A stretch of 64,000 nucleotides of DNA from a virus, in the IMG/VR virus record IMGVR_UViG_3300020419_000010, positions 28,433 through 92,432 of that record. One strand, given 5' to 3'. The notes beneath the pieces are model-generated. The model saw nothing but the letters and a program-made list of their open reading frames with translations. It had not been told where the DNA came from and ran no database searches. Positions 27,301-48,691 of the stretch are shown here, piece after piece. Within the stretch, counting starts at the first letter, position 1. Every line of letters begins with the position of its first letter. The translations under genes were made by a program, and so were the position numbers.

Positions 27301-30300
27301 ACAAGGTTACCATCTATGGTGCTAACCCTGCTGTATATAATGGCACGTTTGAAGTAACGTCACGTCTTGATGAATTTACCTTTACATATAACTTACCTGT
27401 TCCTACTGATATTGTTCCACAGGGTAATATTCTATTATCAGTTGACCTCAACAGAGGTAAGTCAACTGTAACCTCTATTAATGAAGTTATATCACTCTTT
27501 ACATCTAACATACAGAACTCCTTCTTCAATAGTGCTTATGTTTACATTGCTGCATCTGGATTACCCAACTATAAGGTTGGACCATTTACAGGATCTGCAC
27601 TTATTCCAGGAAACCAACGTAAGTTACTAAGATTCCCTAGAACAGTTGAGACAGTATCTACAAGAACAATAGTTGCACCCAATACTCCTATTGGATCATG
27701 GGTAAATGGTGTTGCTGCATGGTCTTACAAGTCTGCTGATGTTGTAACATTTGGACCTTTAACCAGTATTAGTATTCTTACAAATGGACAAGACTATGAT
27801 GCTGGATCAAAACCAGCATTAGAAATAACTGGTGGTGGAGGTACAGGTGCTGCTGCTGCGGTAACTGTTAATGGTTCTTTATTCTCTATTGCTGTAACTA
27901 ATGAAGGATCTAATTACACAACACAACCATTAATCTCTATTGTTGGTGGTGGTGGATCTGGTGCAACTGCACAAGCGGTTGTTACTAATGGTAGAGTAAC
28001 AAGAGTACTTGTAGAGAATGCTGGAACTGGATATACATCTCAACCTACTATATCAATAACTGGTGGTGGCGGTATAGGTGCCCTTGCATCTGCACAAGTT
28101 CGTGGTCCTATATCAGGTGTAACTCTAACATCCCCTGGTGCTGGATATACATCAACTCCTTCAATCAGACTAAATTCTGGTGAAGGTGCTCTGGCACAAC
28201 CTATTGTTATTAATGGTCGTATTGTATCAATCGCTATTATTAACTCTGGATCTGGATATACAACTGCACCTACTATCTTTATTAATGGTGATGGATTTGG
28301 TGCTCAGGCAGTTGCTGTTATTGGAACATTAGGAGAAGATAAAGGTAAAGTTATATCTGTAACAATTACAAATAGAGGTGTTGGATATACACAAGGAATG
28401 ACAACCGTACGTTTAGAAGCGGTTGGTCAACTAGCAACATTCCAAGCAAACGTATTCCAGTGGAATAAAAACCTTGAATACGATTTAGCATCAAAGTATG
28501 ACGTAGCGAGAGGATATGTATTTACTGGATTCAATAACCAGTATGGTGGTGAGTATGCACATATATCAGATCCAAAAGAACTAAGATATGTTGTTGGTGA
28601 TAACGTTGTATTAGATCCAGTCACACAATCATTCAGAGAGATAGGTGTTAACGAAGCACACTCTCCTATTATTGGTTGGGCATTTGATGGTAACCCAATC
28701 TACGGTCCATATGGATATATCGACCCAACTGATCAGAACAGTGGATTAAGAAGAATGCGTTCCTCTTATAAACTTAAAGACGAAGTTGTATATGATCTAG
28801 ATACTAACCCAACACCATCAAGAACAGATGGTCCTGCATTATCAGAGTATCCTGCTGGTATATTTGTTAATGACTATGAATACACATTCCAAAGAGGTGA
28901 CTTAGATCCTTACAATGGTAGATTCTGTAAGACACCTGATTTCCCTGCTGGAACTTATGCATACTTCATTACTATTGATGAATCAGATACAGGTTTACCA
29001 GTATTCCCTTATATTATTGGTCCACAGTTTAACTCTGTTGTTGATACATGGAACTTATCATTAAATGCAGTTCAAGAGAATATACCTCTTGATGTTTCTC
29101 GTTTCAGAGATCCATATGCTAATGTTGATATTGATATTGACCGCCAACCTAACCAAGAGTCAGATTCTTTCGTTACTGAGAAAGAAGGTGATGTACTTAT
29201 CTTTGAAATAGAGGATATTGACGGTGATGGATTAATTACTCCTGTTGAGATTGCAAATCAGCAAGCAATTACAGAAGAAGCAGCATTACAGATATATGAT
29301 TACTTCCCATTAGTATCTGCTGAGTCAAGAGTTGATATTGAAGTAGAAACAACTACAAAATTTGAATCTGCACAGATTGATGGGTTTGTTATTGAAAACC
29401 CAGGTGTATCATATCAGGTTAATGATACATTGTTCTTTGACAACACAGGAACAGGTGGATTTGGTGCATCTGCACAAATTGAGTCAGTGGTAGGTCAAAG
29501 TATTGCTGCTTATCAGAAACAAATTATAAATGACATACCATACGGTAAAATTATTACTTCTGCTAACCATGAACTTATTGCACAAGATGAAATCATCGTA
29601 AGTTCACGAGTTATTACAGAAAACACAAATAAGAGATTCTACATGTCAGTTGTTACTGGTATTGAGACAATCTCTGTTGATCAGATAGGTGTTGGTTATA
29701 ATGAGCAGATTCCTGCAACTTATGAGATTATTGCAAGTCAAGGACAAGACGTAGAACTAGATGTCGTTCTTGATACTACTACTGGTAAGATTGATACTGT
29801 TAATATCATTAATTCTGGTTATGGATACTCAGTAGATGCTATACCACAAATTAGAGTATCACATCCACAACAATACAAGAAAACTTACTATTGGTTAAAC
29901 CAGTATGCTGAATCTTCTGCATCATTTGAAATATTTGACATTCAACCAGCAGATGATCGTACATGGTATGCGTGTGGTGAACTTACAGAGACAAATGGCA
30001 ATAGTTCTGCATTCTTAGCTAAGTTCTCTGATCTTGGTGGTGTAATTTGGGATAGAACACTTTTACCAAGTGCAAGTATCAAGAAAGCAAGATTTAAACG
30101 TATATACTTAGATCAAACAACTGCTGATGACCATATCATCTATGTTCTTGGTGAAACAGAGTCACAATCAACTGCTGCATACAATCCTGACATATTAGTT
30201 GTCAAATATCAATCTGGTCTTGATAATGCTAACAACCCAGAGGGTATTGTTGAGTGGCAGAAGGAAATTGCTGGTGTATCGGGTTCAACAAGGTCTGACT

Positions 30301-33300
30301 ATGCTGGTGACCTCTATATGGACGATGAACAACGTCTATACATCTGTGGTTGGACAGATACTAACTCAGTTGACCCAGATGACATCTGGATCATGCAACT
30401 TAACAGTTTAGGTGATGTTATCGAGAAACGTAAGTTTGCTTCACCTAATAAAGGAGAACAATTACATCAGATTCATTATATTGGAAATGATAAGATTATA
30501 TTCACTGGTATTGACTTAGATAACAACGATCTCATGTTTGGTGAGATGATCTATGATGGATCTAACATTGAAATGAGATATGTTAAGAAATTAGCAGTAT
30601 CTGGTGGTCAGGTAAGAAGACCACAGTTTGTTATTGATTCTTACAATGATTTGTTCTTCACATGTGATATGTGGAACGGAACTAAGCATTATGGTGTTGC
30701 ATTGTTCAAAATTGCAATGTCACAGGTTGAAACCACTGCTGCTAACCCAACATGGGTATTCTCAAAGATTATTGCACCTAGTATTCCTTTTGAGTCAATT
30801 ACACACGCTGGTGTCTCTCTTGATGAGTTTGGAAACATTAATCTTGTTACACACGTTTTATATGAAGATAATAACCAACAAGCAATTATTAATTACATCA
30901 AATACGATGGAACGACTCTTAAAAAGTCAAATGTCATTTCTGGTGCTTGGAATAGTGGAACTTCAACAACAGATTACGGTTTAGGGTTTACTGCACATAA
31001 TCATACTGTTGATAACTCTGGTGATGTCATAATTCCAGCAAATATCCAAAAATCAGTTCAAAGTGCTGTATATCGTTTTAATGACACTAACGATCTTTAC
31101 TTTGACGCTACAAAACAGAAAAAGGCGATTCCTACGATTGTAAACAGTGCACAACTTGTTTATGACAGTACAGTTCAAAAATTTGGTACAGGATCACTTA
31201 AATTCCAACAATACGGTTCTTTATCATGGGCAAACCTTGATAACAATGATGATTGGACTGTTGCAATGTGGGTCAAGATGGATACGTCTCATGACTCCAA
31301 TAATCCAATAATGGAGATGATTACAGCGATAGATGACGCTGGTTCGACTGTAAAACTTAATATTATCGGTGCAGCGTCAGATGCCAACTTTGGTAAGATC
31401 AGAATGGTGATTGCACCGCAAGGTGCAAGTGCAGTGACTGTTGATTCAGTTGGATCAACATATTTCACTACAATGGACGCTGGTAACTGGCATCACATTG
31501 CATTTGTTAAAGAAGAACCTAGTTTGGGTTCATATGACTATTCTGTTTATTTTGATGGTGTAAGAACAAATACTGCAACTAGCACTGCTGATATTGCAAT
31601 GGATGACCTTACAATCGGTTGTGCAACATCAGGACAAGCAATTACTAACTCATTCCTTGGACATATTGATGATATCGCTATTGAAGCAAGAGCAGTCTAT
31701 ACTGGATCATCTTTACAAGTTCCTACCGAAAGATATCGTATTACAACAGTTAATAGCAATACTGACTACATTAAGTTTGATAGGGAGCATATTAAGCGTG
31801 CTGATTACCAAACATCAACAGATGGACTCGTATTTACAGAAAATACAAATCTCAACATTAATAATCTTAATAATCCAGTAATTACCGTTTGGAACGAAGG
31901 TGCAAGTGGATTACAGATATTAGACTACTCTGACGTGACTTCTCAACTAAGTCCAGGAACTTATACGTTCTCAGAGACAGTTACAACATTTGCGTCTAAA
32001 ACTTCGACTATTCCAACTCCATTAGGTAAGAGACTACTTATTACACCTAATGTTGTTGCAAAATACTATATTAGGGATGCTGGGTATTCTAAGATTGATA
32101 ACGTCCTAGAATTCACATTTAACCAAGCAATCAAGTATTCTAAGGGAACTATCATTCAACAGTTCAATTCCCAAGGTGTAACACAAGCATTTGGTACTAT
32201 TGTTGGAGTTCCAACAGGAACACTTAATAATCCTGGATTAGGCACCAAATACAAGATTGGTAAGATATATGGTACTTTTAACGATTCTGACAGATTTAGA
32301 AACGATACTAACGAAGAAAACACTATTGACAACGTAGAGTTCAATGTTAAGCGTCCACAGGAACAATGGGTAACTGGTAAGGCATATGTCGTTGGAGATC
32401 AAGTTTATAGTGCTGGTAAGATATATGCTGCTACAAACTCTGCTACATCAGGTGGAACTGCTCCTACACACTCTATTGGTATAGTTACTGATGGTGCTGT
32501 TACATGGAACTTTATTAGCGTATCTGGAACATTACAAGTTAATCTTGCAGACTATGCTTGGCCCAGACCATCAGAACCAGAATGGGAAGAAAATAGATCT
32601 TATTCTGCTAATGATTTTGTTTACTATGGTAGATACAAGTATCAGGCACAAGCAGATGGTATTGCTGGACCAACTGCTCCTGTACATACAACTGGTACTG
32701 TTAGTGATGGAAATGTCAACTGGGCATACGTTTCAACATATACAGGATTAGATTCGTTTGCTAGATTCAGACCATATGCTGAGAACGATTATCGAATACA
32801 AATTATGGGAATCTACACAGATTCCGATTTCATAGTTGGTGACGTAATTTCGCTAGGTAATAGTATCACGGCTATACCAAACGCAGATAATCCAAAGATA
32901 GCAGATATCGATGGAATTGGATCTGTAAGTAAGATTAGATTTACTGTAAACCTTGATAAAGATATTATTAGAACTGCTAATACAAGAACTGACTTAATAT
33001 ATGCAACTGCTACTACTAAGCATAATCTAAACGTAAATGACATTCTATATGTTGAAGGATTCACAACTGCTGAATTTAATGGATCATTCTTTGTACAAGA
33101 ACTATTCTCTTCAAGAGATTACACATATAGACTTCGTTCAACTGCAAGTGCTGACCCACTATTTGTAAACAGTGGTATTGCGAATGTCAAGATATCATCT
33201 AAGCACCCAACATTAATGTTGGTTAGAAATCATTCTTATATCTTTGATATGAGTGATGTATCTAACTTCGGATATTTCTTATCATTCTCACAAGACAACC

Positions 33301-36300
33301 AGTTTAAACTTGAATACTCATTCAACGTTATTGAAAGAGAAGGAACCCCTGGTGTAGCATCTGCAACTGAGACACCTACCGTTCAGTTTACAATCGGTGG
33401 AGAAGTTACTAATATTACTTACTACTTTGACCCATCAAGACTTGGTTCTAATTCACCTGTTGGTACAAACTCATTTATTGATGTTATTAAGACACCGTTT
33501 GATGGTACATTTAGAATTTCTGAGGTTCTAAGTGATACTGAGTTTAGATTCCCACTATTATATGAACCAGAATTTACAAATGCTAATATAGGACTTGATG
33601 ATCAAGATGAACCTAATTCCAAATACTCTACTACATCAGTAAAAGCGATTGGTCCTATTAATAATATTAAACTGATATCCCCAGGTGGATTCTATCAAAG
33701 ACTACCTGTTGTATCTGATATTGCATCAGATCGTAAGATTGAGAAAGTTAGAATTGTTAATGGTGGTACTGAATATGCAGTTGGTGTTTACACACAAGTT
33801 CCTATTTTAGGTGATGGTGAAGGTGGTCTTGTTCAACTTACTGTTGAAGTTGATGAAGAGATTGGATCAGGAACTATTACTGCTGTTGCATTAACAGATC
33901 CAGGAAAAGGATATACAGAGGCATCTATTGATGTAGATGGTATTGAAGGTATTTTAGGACCTACATTGTCAGGTTCTGGTGCTGAATTAAATGTTGTAAT
34001 TCCTGCTGAGGGTACTGGTGCTGCTGTATTCTTAACTGGTAGACAGATTGGTAAGATTAAAACTCTTAAAAACAATGAATTTGGTTATGGTTACTCACAT
34101 GACTATACCTTACGTCCTGAGATTGCATTCCCAGTCAACTTACAGTTATTCAATACATCTATTCTTTCACAGATTACGATTACAAATCCTGGTGCTGGTT
34201 ATACATCTCCTCCTTCTGTTATCATCGAAGGTGGTGGTGGAACAGGTGCTGAGGCAGAGGCAATCGTTAAGAACAATAGATTATCAGAGATTCTAATTAA
34301 AAATCCTGGTGCTGGATATAGTTCACAACCATCAGTAACACTTAAATCAGAATTTACATACGTTGTAAACCTTGACTTGAACTACTTACAGTTTAACTTC
34401 CCACATGGTATTACAACTGGTGCTGCTGTACAGTTTAGAGCAGAAGATATTGGTTCTACTGTCGGTGTACTACCAAAACCAAGTTCAGTTGGTTTGACAT
34501 CATTATCATCAACACAAACATACTATGCTATCACTGGTGATGCTAACTCACTAGAATCTGATCAGTTAAGATTTGCTTTAACACCTGTTGATGCACAGTC
34601 TGGTAACTTTATCACATTCTTAACACAGGGTGATGGTCGTCAGGTTCTTCTTACTGAGGTATTTGGTGGTCAAGCAGATGCTGTTGTTGAAACATCACGT
34701 TTCTTAGAAGGTGAAGAAGTATTCCAAGGTGAGACATATGAATTAGCAAGTGCATTTGGTATTGTATCAGAAAATGAAGGTTGGCAGATACAACCTAAGA
34801 TTTTAAAGATTACTAACCCACGAGGAGATTTTGTTGTTGGTGGTAAAGTACAAGGTGTGATATCTCGTGCATCTGGTATTATTGATAACTTGAATATTGC
34901 TAAGGGTGTTCTTAATATTGACGCTCTTACTAGAACTCCTGGTAGATTTATTGATGACGTTGGTAAACCATCAGAGATTGTACAAAAGATTCAAGACTCT
35001 TACTTCTATCAGAACTTCTCTTATGTTATTAAGTCTAAGATTCCTATCAATAGATGGAAAGAACAAATATTAGAAAACAACCATCCTGTTGGATTCAGCA
35101 TGTTTGGTCAGTTAGAACTAACTGGTGGTAAAGACGTATCTGGACGTAAAGTTGTTGCTGGATTTACAAAACAGGTAAACATCAATGAGTATTCTAATGT
35201 AAACCAAATTACATCCTTTGGTGCTGCACAACCTATCTACTCTACATTCAACAACTCTGAGGTTCTATTCCGTAAGAAGAGATTAACTAACTCTGAGGAA
35301 ATTCTAACTTCTATTGTTAAAAAGATTGATAATATTGCATCACAGTTTGATGGATCTAAGAAATCATTCCCAATCGCTGTTGAAGGTGAGAACTTAGTTG
35401 TAAATGAGAACCAGTTACTAATTACACTTAATGGTATTATACAGGCACCTGGAACTTCATATAGTGTTGTTGGTAATAACCTTGTATTTGCTGAACCTCC
35501 AAAACCTGATTCTAAGGTTGTATACAGAAATGTAGAAGTTGATCTATATCCAATTACAAGATTTAACTTGAATACTATTGGTGGTATATTCCCATCAATA
35601 GGTGATACAGTATTTGGTTTTGTTTCTAATGCAACTGCAAGAGTTGTTGCAACTGGTGCTACATCTGTTGATGTTGTAGATATTCAAAATGGTCCATTCG
35701 TACTTAATGAAAGAATTGATGTTAGTAGAACAGGATTCAGTGCTCTTATTGGATCAATAGATGACTCTATTACTAAAATATTCTTACAGAATATAGGTGG
35801 AACATTTACACAAAGTGCACTTGCTGGTGATAGGGTAACTGGTGCTACAACAGGAGCAACCGCTACTATACAAACTGTTGATACTGTTAACCAGACTATT
35901 GACGTTACTGACATGGCAAATGGTTACTTTGATAGAGGAGAGAATGTATCATTCTTTAATGCTGGATATGGTGCTAATGTATTAAACGTAGATAGCGTAA
36001 ACTATAAGACTATCTTTGAGTTTGGTGAAACTGTAACAAGTCTTGATGGTAATACTGCTGTAATTGAAGAGAACAACCTTGACCTTGATGGTGTTATTGA
36101 TGATAAGTTAGTTCTTTCTAAAACATCAGGTACATCTGAATATGAAACAGGAACATACAGTATATTCTTAAACGATATAATCTATTCAGCAAGTTCTAAT
36201 ATCGCTGCTAAGATTACAAGTATTTCTCCATATAGAGATCCTATTGTTTCTATCAACTTAGTACGTCCTGTTGGTAGTACAACTGGATCATGGTCTAGTT

Positions 36301-45576: not shown

Positions 45577-47178
45577 ATGGCAGGGACCGCAACCTACAAT
45601 CCAGCAACACGAATCATAGATGTATCAGCAGATGGTTTACCAAACCCTGTACTCTATGGTACGTTTCCTAATGCGAATAATCCTAGTTCGGTAACTGAGC
45701 AAGACTTTGACCATGACTTTTATTTTAGAGGTGGTACATTTGGTGTTACAAGAACATTTGATACTGCAACATACACACAGAATGGATACCTAGTATCATT
45801 ACCACTCTCGGCTAACGACAATACGCTGCTCGGAACTACTGAGAGTGGACAGATTAGGGTTAACGATAGGATTCTATTTGTATTCGATAAGGACACTGCT
45901 AACGAACGTAAACAAGTATTCATATACAGAGGGACAACTCAGACTGCTATTGCTGGGGAGTTTTGGAGAGAGACAAGTAATAATTTACAACTTATTGTAG
46001 ACTTTGCTTCTGATCAAAATGGTACAGTAGAGTATTACGATCAAAGAAATGCTCGTGTTGCAACACCTCTTGGTGCTATTGGTGTAGCATCTAATGGTGT
46101 AGTATTCTTTAATCCTAGTGCTGGTGATGGAGGTAATCCCCCAGCAGGATTTAATTGGAATGCACACTTTGAAGATGCTGTGGTAAGTTTTGGAGATGAT
46201 AATTGTGGTGGACACCCAGAACAGACAGGACAATATCATTACCATGACACTGACTTCTTAGCATGCTGGAAAGCAAATGCTGTTATGTCAACATACAATG
46301 ATTACTATGGTTCATCACAGTATAATGGTGACAATCTAAGGCACCCAGATGGGCACTCAAAGATGGTTGGAATAGCATTTGATGGATTCCCTATCTATGG
46401 ACCTTATTTCTACACAAGTCCTTGGAACAATGGATCTGGTATATCATTAGCAACAAGTTCTTATAGAATAAAAGCAGAAGAGGTTGCAGGCAGACCTACC
46501 TATGGTACCAGTCAACTTAATCCTCCTGCTGGTTCTCTGATGCAAGACTGGGAGTATGCAGAGGGTCTTGGTGTATTAGATTATCATAATGGTAGATTCT
46601 GTGTAACACCAGAATATCCAAATGGAACATATGCATATTTCTTATCTACTGAGTTAGATAGTGAGTCAAATTTGAAAGCAATATTCCCATACTTGATGGG
46701 TTTCACATGTAGGGAATCAATAGATCAACCACCAAACAACGGAGCACAGGCACCCCCTGCACCTCCATCAGGAGGAGGAGAAGCACCTCCTGCAACTATT
46801 CAGATTGGTGCACAACCAGCAAACGCAACTGCTGCTGCAAATCAAACAGTCACATTTGTTGTTACTGCTGCTATATCACCCGAAGATGGTCCCAAGTCTT
46901 ATCAGTGGTATAGATCAACTGATGGTGGATTCTCTTTTGCTGTTGTTACTGGTGCAACAAGCAATTCATATGCATTCACTGCATTATCATACATGACAGG
47001 ATACAAATTCCGTTGTGTAATTGCAGGACCTATTGGACAAACACCAGCAACAAACTCACCATTAACAACTGAAATCGCTACATTAACTGTTACTGGTGTT
47101 GGCGGTGGAACTGCTGAGGACTTCTCATCAACTAACTTGAAGTTGGATAGCACACAAGTTTCCTTCGACGCCACATAA
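45577..47178 (+). CDS. YHYH-domain virion protein with Ig-like C-terminus (533 aa)
   Basis: Residues about 185-375 form a YHYH domain: literal YHYH at 220-223 after HPEQTGQ, then GIAFDGFPIYGPYFY and the ending DYHNGRFCVTPEYPNGTYAYF. A Pro-rich linker (APPAPPSGGGEAPP) leads to an Ig-like domain (about 410-510, QPANATAAANQTVTF ... YQWYRSTDGG). The same two modules occur in the giant protein upstream. Likely an exposed adhesin or decoration. The YHYH domain has no established function that I know. Confidence 0.75.
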   Translation: MAGTATYNPATRIIDVSADGLPNPVLYGTFPNANNPSSVTEQDFDHDFYFRGGTFGVTRTFDTATYTQNGYLVSLPLSANDNTLLGTTESGQIRVNDRILFVFDKDTANERKQVFIYRGTTQTAIAGEFWRETSNNLQLIVDFASDQNGTVEYYDQRNARVATPLGAIGVASNGVVFFNPSAGDGGNPPAGFNWNAHFEDAVVSFGDDNCGGHPEQTGQYHYHDTDFLACWKANAVMSTYNDYYGSSQYNGDNLRHPDGHSKMVGIAFDGFPIYGPYFYTSPWNNGSGISLATSSYRIKAEEVAGRPTYGTSQLNPPAGSLMQDWEYAEGLGVLDYHNGRFCVTPEYPNGTYAYFLSTELDSESNLKAIFPYLMGFTCRESIDQPPNNGAQAPPAPPSGGGEAPPATIQIGAQPANATAAANQTVTFVVTAAISPEDGPKSYQWYRSTDGGFSFAVVTGATSNSYAFTALSYMTGYKFRCVIAGPIGQTPATNSPLTTEIATLTVTGVGGGTAEDFSSTNLKLDSTQVSFDAT

Positions 47179-47203: not shown

Positions 47204-48691
47204 ATGGCTAAACAAACGATTGGGATTGGATCTTCTGCAAATGATGGCACAGGTGACACCCTGCGTGATGGTGCTATCAAGGCAAATTCTAATTTCACAG
47301 ATATTTACGATAAACTAGGGGATAGTACAAATGTTCTCATAGACATCGGTGCTGGAATAACCGAGGGACAAGTTCTTAAATGGACTTCATCTCCAACTCC
47401 TGCATTCCGTGGTTCAGATTATAATTTACTAAGCAGTAATTTAGACACTAATGGTAATGATATTGTTTCTGACGGAACTGATGCTATTACAATACATCAA
47501 ACAGGAACTGGGCATATTAATCTTAGAGCAGGCGGTTCTGGGTCAGCTTATACACGAATAGATGGCACAACAGGTTATCTAACGTGGTATGCTCCATACG
47601 CACTCGAATCTGATCTTCCTAGTGCAACAGACCAGCATGGTATGTTTGCACATGTACATGGCACAGGTAAAGGTTACTTCGCTCATGCTGCTGCATGGGT
47701 CAAGTTGATGGACTATAACGATGGTATATCTGCACTTACTGATGTAGATACAACTGTCAACGGTGGTCCTTCTGATGGACAAGTTCTAAAATGGAACGAC
47801 ACTAATAGTAAGTGGGAACCAGCAAACGACCAGCAATCTGGTGGTGGAGGTGGTGGAACCACACAAAACTTATTTGAAACTGTTAACGCAGACACAGGAA
47901 CAACAACTGCATCTGCTGCAAACGACACTTTAATTATTGCTGGTGGTACAAATATTGCAACTTCACTTACAGGAGATACATTAACCATCAACATGACAGG
48001 TTCACTGGGTGCACCTGATCAAAACATATTTGCAACGTTAGGTGCTGACAACGCAACTATCACAGCAAACACTACAACTGATACATTAACATTTACTGGT
48101 GGAACAGGAATCACCACAAATGCAAATGCTGGTGCTATTACAATAACAAATGATTCACCTAACGTGGTGCAGAATGTTATTAAAACTATTGCTGCAACAA
48201 GTGGATCTTACACTGGTGTTGCTGCTGACTCAACTATGAACATAGTTGGTGGAACAGGTATTACAACTGCGGTTTCAAGTAATACTCTTACAATTACAAA
48301 TACAGTTGCTCTCCCTAGTGCAACATCAGGACAGTCACTTCTATATGGTGCAAGTTCATATGAAGCAGTTGCATCACCTACATTGTCATATAGCTTTACA
48401 TCAGATGGCACATCGCAGAATTATTTGGTAACAGGTCCTGGTCTGTCTAGTGGTAGTGACTCAACGATCTATGTGTACAGAGGATTCACATACAGATTTG
48501 ATAATACAACTGGAAGTGGACACCCACTAGCAATCAGGGTATCTGATGGTGGTTCATCTGTTTCTAATGTCAGTGGTTCAGTGAATGGTGTTCAGTTATG
48601 GACAGTTCCACAAACACTTGCTGCTGGTACAACTTATGTTTATCAGTGTACTATACACGGTAATATGAAAGGAGATATAGTAGTAGTATAA
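47204..48691 (+). CDS. Virion protein with C-terminal cupredoxin-like domain (495 aa)
   Basis: The N-terminus (QTIGIGSSANDGTGDTLRDG) is that of many marine phage structural proteins. The middle is Thr/Gly-rich beta repeats. Residues about 395-495 fold like a small blue-copper domain: YRFDNTTGSGHPLAIRV gives His440, and QCTIHGNMKGDIVVV gives Cys482, His485, Met488, the C-x2-H-x2-M spacing seen in amicyanin. All four type 1 copper ligands are thus present. It may bind copper or keep the fold only. TAATG overlap with the next gene. Confidence 0.7.
   Translation: MAKQTIGIGSSANDGTGDTLRDGAIKANSNFTDIYDKLGDSTNVLIDIGAGITEGQVLKWTSSPTPAFRGSDYNLLSSNLDTNGNDIVSDGTDAITIHQTGTGHINLRAGGSGSAYTRIDGTTGYLTWYAPYALESDLPSATDQHGMFAHVHGTGKGYFAHAAAWVKLMDYNDGISALTDVDTTVNGGPSDGQVLKWNDTNSKWEPANDQQSGGGGGGTTQNLFETVNADTGTTTASAANDTLIIAGGTNIATSLTGDTLTINMTGSLGAPDQNIFATLGADNATITANTTTDTLTFTGGTGITTNANAGAITITNDSPNVVQNVIKTIAATSGSYTGVAADSTMNIVGGTGITTAVSSNTLTITNTVALPSATSGQSLLYGASSYEAVASPTLSYSFTSDGTSQNYLVTGPGLSSGSDSTIYVYRGFTYRFDNTTGSGHPLAIRVSDGGSSVSNVSGSVNGVQLWTVPQTLAAGTTYVYQCTIHGNMKGDIVVV

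Follow-up and report, generated by a model that had tools for sequence, protein, structure and literature searches.

In cells, cupredoxins serve as electron carriers and as domains of enzymes. A phage gene whose product ends in what appears to be a complete type 1 copper site raises the question of whether such a domain can also be part of a virion, and what a metal would do there. The gene (47204..48691, + strand, 495 aa) lies in the window, the whole stretch of 64,000 nucleotides that was analyzed (positions 28,433 to 92,432 of the 92,432-base IMG/VR record IMGVR_UViG_3300020419_000010). The nearest isolate of the 42-64 kb region in the phage collection is cyanophage P-RSM6 (~76% identity over 70% of the query), followed by Synechococcus phage S-WAM1. 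The window is therefore a cyanomyovirus (Kyanoviridae-like) tail region. A YHYH-domain virion protein (45577-47178, PF14240 at 1.7e-36) is encoded upstream. Downstream genes encode a wedge protein of the gp8 family and a 2481-aa protein that occupies the gp10 position. The baseplate region also holds one 7076-aa open reading frame (24339-45569), which contains a YHYH-like sequence as well. Comparable giant proteins of 7078 and 7079 aa are found in related contigs, and a 6619-aa 'baseplate wedge initiator' is present in S-SZBM1 virions (PMC9146016).

Searched at its full length of 495 aa, the protein falls into PHROG 677 ('baseplate wedge tail fiber protein connector') with an E value of 1.7e-132. 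Since the last 112 aa match the same family on their own (5.2e-36), the cupredoxin ending is a regular part of PHROG 677 and not a private addition. The N-terminal segment (aa 3-48, 47210..47347, + strand) resembles T4 gp9 and gp10. It matches PF07880 with an E value of 4.8e-8 (33.7 bits, above the cut-off of 25), and in the PDB it matches the chains of T4 gp10 (2e-5) and T4 gp9 (0.0016). An orthologue that is 66% identical over 494 aligned residues, S-SZBM1_206, shares both gene order and the H/C/H/M ending with the window protein. LC-MS of S-SZBM1 particles purified on CsCl identified S-SZBM1_206 from 9 peptides (24.9% coverage, emPAI 0.98; PMC9146016 Table 1). It is through this orthologue, and not the window protein itself, that this type of protein is placed on virions by experiment. 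An earlier note made from the DNA sequence had called the product a virion protein, and both the PHROG 677 membership and the proteomics of the orthologue support that call.

The putative copper ligands are His440 in GSGHPLA (48521..48523, CAC) and Cys482 (48647..48649, TGT), His485 (48656..48658, CAC) and Met488 (48665..48667, ATG) in CTIHGNM, all on the + strand. Codons and translation agree with the positions and the C-x2-H-x2-M spacing given in the earlier note. This is the sole C-x2-H-x2-M motif in window frames of at least 50 aa, and one arises in 0.0125% of shuffles of the 112-aa domain; a chance motif was rejected on these two grounds. A profile built from 15 divergent copies was compared with PDB sequences, and amicyanin ranked first (E 3.2e-5), followed by nitrite reductase (NirK) and plastocyanin. 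The alignment puts H440, C482, H485 and M488 all on the amicyanin ligands, which we take to be H53, C92, H95 and M98, in line with the type 1, amicyanin-like reading proposed before. Direct profile comparison with a manually entered amicyanin sequence gave a probability of 94.8 (E 5e-8). A profile was needed for these firmer matches, as the single-sequence PDB search found weak amicyanin similarity only (E 0.5). The Pfam Copper-bind model (PF00127) matches 11/15 family members, with a best E value of 4.6e-4, and gives the window copy 14.6 bits, below the gathering cut-off of 21.2, which counts against the copper-site reading. The amicyanin model TIGR02657 gives the window domain 18.2 bits, far from the equivalog cut-off of 110.2. 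Thus the domain resembles amicyanin at the predicted copper site but is not an amicyanin. Cys482 is the only cysteine of the protein and the only invariant cysteine of the family, so there is no conserved disulfide, and a disulfide or cross-linking role for this residue was rejected.

An AlphaFold2 model of aa 384-495, derived from an alignment of 22 family members, has nine strands, a pLDDT of 90.8 and a pTM of 0.83. His440 (domain residue 57) is located between strands 46-51 and 59-62, strand 94-99 ends in Cys482 (domain residue 99), and His485 and Met488 (domain residues 102 and 105) are in the loop that precedes the last strand, 106-111. As modeled, this layout of strands and ligands is the cupredoxin arrangement in a cupredoxin-type beta sandwich. 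To judge from the alignment and the high-confidence model, the four ligand side chains would probably converge on one metal site. A Foldseek search of the PDB points to the same fold, as the best 50 matches listed are all cupredoxin-fold proteins (best E about 1e-5, probability 1.0), including rusticyanin, nitrite reductase, plastocyanin, amicyanin and laccase-type domains. The structural match to cupredoxins of known structure is of moderate quality (TM about 0.4-0.6, rmsd 4-6 A), which weighs against the copper-site reading. The earlier note had staked its claim on a Greek-key barrel with a fitting strand order and on ligands clustered in space. The confident cupredoxin-type prediction and the best 50 matches bear out the fold, and the His loop, Cys strand and His-Met loop are placed in the model as in cupredoxins. 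The domain that it had drawn at 48380-48690 was also upheld, with slightly larger limits (aa 384-495, 48353..48688, + strand) replacing those first given.

To examine conservation, 162 distinct sequences of the wider family were gathered from viral contigs and phage records; 153 of them aligned in full. H, C, H and an axial residue are kept in 145/153 copies (138 Met, 7 Gln), a count to be read with the fact that the family profile was seeded with ligand-bearing copies and so under-counts ligand-less ones. When phage copies were clustered at 60% identity, 50 of the 58 clusters keep the full set (48 Met, 2 Gln). The remaining eight comprise five that lack H, C and H together and three that are partial. 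By column, His440 is kept in 51 clusters, Cys482 in 52 and His485 in 51, and position 488 is Met in 51 and Gln in two. Ranked by relative entropy, C482, M488, H440 and H485, in that order, are conserved more strongly than all other columns. The ligand conservation that the earlier note had asked about is therefore high. In gp9 C-termini alone (31 distinct sequences; 22-member alignment) the ligands are invariant, as are many other positions. Across copies, both synonymous codons are used at the His and Cys ligand positions. The residues between the ligands vary freely (CTIHGNM, CNIHSLM, CTQHPLM, CTLHAAM), which argues that a metal site, and not a fixed partner surface, explains the conservation. 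Together, the ligand-aligned amicyanin profile match, the exclusively cupredoxin best 50 folds and the four most conserved columns make the motif more than a chance resemblance.

Two features of the family weigh against the copper-site reading. Proline follows the first His ligand in 56/58 clusters. Classical blue copper proteins usually have asparagine there, whose backbone NH bonds the Cys sulfur, and because proline replaces it the site may be tuned differently from plastocyanin. Copies with Gln for Met, such as the one at residues 194-300 of L048, suggest further tuning. That copy belongs to a second, internal cupredoxin at residues about 194-300 in four gp9 proteins of 641-645 aa (L048, L053, L079 and L080), in which the axial position holds Gln and not Met (CHHHTGQ), a feature of stellacyanin-type sites. 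The second feature is the existence of ligand-less copies in other phage proteins, from which it follows that the fold can serve without metal. In four phage structural proteins (L142, L121, L164 and L161) cupredoxin-like domains have the His/Cys/His replaced (YYYQSSASLGVGG, YYYRSSTSNIGG), and these domains are, to judge from the residues at the ligand positions, natural metal-free versions. A segment of the 7076-aa protein in the window (33081-33560) is very conserved, lacks the ligands and bears a faint likeness to the N-terminal half of a cupredoxin. It is not claimed as a ligand-less sister domain (E 0.005, hhalign probability 16%, fold pLDDT 34).

How far the domain has spread was examined by tblastn against annotated phages. 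The window domain found 299-308 records, nearly all of them Synechococcus or Prochlorococcus phages and usually at the end of gp9. With a divergent query the count was 354, and Pelagibacter phages, podovirus P-GSP1 and an Actinomycetia phage were among the records. Apart from gp9, the domain is found in P-SSM2 tail spikes (two copies), Sf-CH5 tail fibers, a collagen-like P-SSM2 protein, an S-SCSM2R protein named PetE and, in many isolates, the gene region adjoining gp9. In that region, a further cupredoxin copy, in which the ligands are unchanged and the loops longer, is carried by structural-gene ORFs of ~497 aa in P-SSM7 (L256), S-SM1 (L260), P-RSM4 (L258), Syn33 (L263), S-RIM2 (L259), S-RIM14 (L262) and ACG-2014d (L261). 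A motif scan of window frames of at least 50 aa found no second cupredoxin copy in the genes neighboring gp9. A scan of genome contigs returned no relative with the window domain as query and 14 relatives, mostly MAGs, with a P-SSM2 copy as query. The clearest cellular relatives found are 155-aa putative lipoproteins of Marinifilum (Bacteroidota). As far as sequence searches reach, the domain is common in cyanophages and not unique to the window contig, and the earlier note was right that other marine phage proteins have endings of this kind.

The domain is thus real, metal-competent by sequence and, via the orthologue, on virions. A single-Cys C/H/H/M site in a cupredoxin fold is a high-affinity copper site in characterized relatives, and on that basis we infer that the domain binds copper. 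Because the cupredoxin fold and all four ligands are kept across hundreds of relatives, cyanophage tails probably carry copper. With moderate confidence, we favor a wedge/tail-fiber connector whose copper-binding type 1 site acts as a copper-stiffened docking or adhesion module. The connector N-terminus would plug into the baseplate wedge, leaving the C-terminus to end in the cupredoxin domain. Cu(I)/Cu(II) would be loaded into the site at host lysis or from seawater. By tying the two ligand loops to each other, the copper could then cross-brace the sandwich and set the form of its exposed end, which may offer a tail fiber or the host surface a place for docking or adhesion. The same module recurs in tail fibers, a collagen-like fiber and other structural proteins.

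A role in bracing is structural, and the same site might instead do redox work, trading electrons with or sensing the host surface or periplasm, for example as a redox trigger for baseplate commitment. The complete type 1 ligand set with a Met axial ligand is compatible with such a role, as is the use of plastocyanin-type chemistry by the cyanobacterial hosts. So are the natural Met-to-Gln variants, since this axial change tunes the potential in stellacyanin-type proteins. However, the domain is also found in an Actinomycetia phage and in Bacteroidota lipoproteins and MAGs, so it is not tied to photosynthesis. There is no linked redox partner gene, and the exposed His485 sits in a loop of variable sequence, where an electron-transfer docking patch would be conserved. 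Variation in the residues near this His and the recurrence of the module in many fiber-like contexts are why bracing is favored over electron transfer; a structural rather than a redox role is inferred, and the redox role appears improbable. We give slightly less credence still to a piggy-back role, in which copper or another soft metal on the virion is recognized by or delivered to host uptake systems, as in the iron 'Trojan/Ferrojan horse'. An iron precedent has been proposed for marine phage tails (PMC11705849). The site is likewise placed on tail proteins, and the same gp9 has a mostly conserved HxH stretch, AHVHGTGKGYFAH. Against it, no host receptor is known, a buried cupredoxin metal is poorly reachable by a receptor, and copper is toxic to marine cyanobacteria, and not limiting, in most settings.

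The remaining alternatives concern the metal itself. The domain could be a structural relic, a beta-sandwich spacer or adhesin only, with no metal and with ligands that persist by descent. Cupredoxin apo-forms fold on their own, and ligand-less copies do occur in other phage proteins. Descent alone, however, does not give the pattern observed. Among clusters that share less than 60% identity, no column is conserved as strongly as the four ligands, their neighbors vary, and H, C and H are usually lost as a set (5/8 non-intact clusters). We regard a metal-free domain as unlikely. A little less likely than that is a site that holds zinc, stored Cu(I) or another metal as a structural staple in place of a blue copper center. 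With the same ligands, substituted cupredoxins can bind Zn(II), Ni(II) or Co(II), bacterial cytoplasmic copper is so low that loading in the cell could favor another metal, and conservation speaks for the upkeep of the ligand set but does not identify the metal. Conversely, C/H/H/M with such spacing is the classic copper set, and seawater offers dissolved copper once the host has lysed.

If the copper-stiffened module is taken further, abundant marine cyanomyovirus virions would be copper metalloproteins with many type 1 sites per particle, at connector ends and in fibers. Occupancy of the sites would control fiber docking, adsorption or triggering, infection would be copper-sensitive, and particles would be tied to the marine copper cycle. 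We regard this extension as rather doubtful. A family of cupredoxins built into phage tails would itself bring copper into the set of metals used for phage attachment, in which iron in HxH fibers has so far been the main one, and would make copper dependence testable for infection by viruses that are among the most common in the ocean. The gene family, PHROG 677, is already known. No report of a cupredoxin on a phage virion, tail or baseplate was found in the literature searched, a body with most subscription journals outside it, and it seems that nobody has so far remarked on a strongly conserved copper site in the tails of marine viruses as abundant as these. What the family offers is a virion cupredoxin whose predicted copper site is more constrained than any other part.

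Annotation is affected as well. PetE is a free photosynthetic electron carrier and an auxiliary metabolic gene of cyanophages. The S-SCSM2R 'PetE' (L063:2800-3306, PQ898602.1) has a tail-fiber-like N-terminus, which begins in the way that the P-SSM2 tail spike does, joined to a virion-type cupredoxin, and is probably a misannotated structural protein, judging from this architecture. Viral 'petE' or copper-protein calls in metagenomes can therefore be tail proteins, a trap for auxiliary-gene surveys. Phage plastocyanin PetE belongs to the same superfamily as the window domain and has the same type of ligands. The window domain is not a stand-alone carrier of that kind, being the C-terminal end of a 495-aa baseplate protein. 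An origin from host petE was also considered and is unsupported, because, in profile comparison, the closest solved relative is amicyanin and not plastocyanin.

A His-rich HxH stretch lies at about aa 147-162 of the window gp9 (FAHVHGTGKGYFAHAA, near 47642-47689). It is kept in most gp9 proteins, is lost in some (L059, L060), and resembles HxH motifs proposed to bind iron on tail-fiber axes. Iron binding by HxH motifs is known or proposed in the tails of T4 (gp37) and Alteromonas phage R22Y (PMC11705849). The window protein is like these fibers in having a metal-binding motif in a phage tail protein. The fibers hold iron at a trimer axis, whereas the window domain has one predicted metal site per domain with a Cys thiolate.

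Among known systems, the window protein belongs fully to PHROG 677, the cyanomyovirus gp9 family, and shares its gene order beside gp8 and gp10-like genes; the family name makes no mention of a cupredoxin domain. With T4 gp9, the long-tail-fiber connector of PF07880, it shares the N-terminal segment and a presumed place on the wedge. This likeness is limited to the N-terminus, the alignment ending at about aa 61, and to our knowledge T4 gp9 has no copper site. The Marinifilum proteins are stand-alone copies with THPFYI ... YYQCSAHPKMG. They differ in having a lipobox-type N-terminus and a cell-envelope setting, and are not phage genes as far as seen. Amicyanin (TIGR02657; PDB 1aac and others) is the closest system by profile, sharing the H...C-x2-H-x2-M set, its spacing and its placement on strands and loops. 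The window domain differs from amicyanin in its low identity (~25%), in having His-Pro and not His-Asn at the first ligand, and in being fused to a phage baseplate protein.
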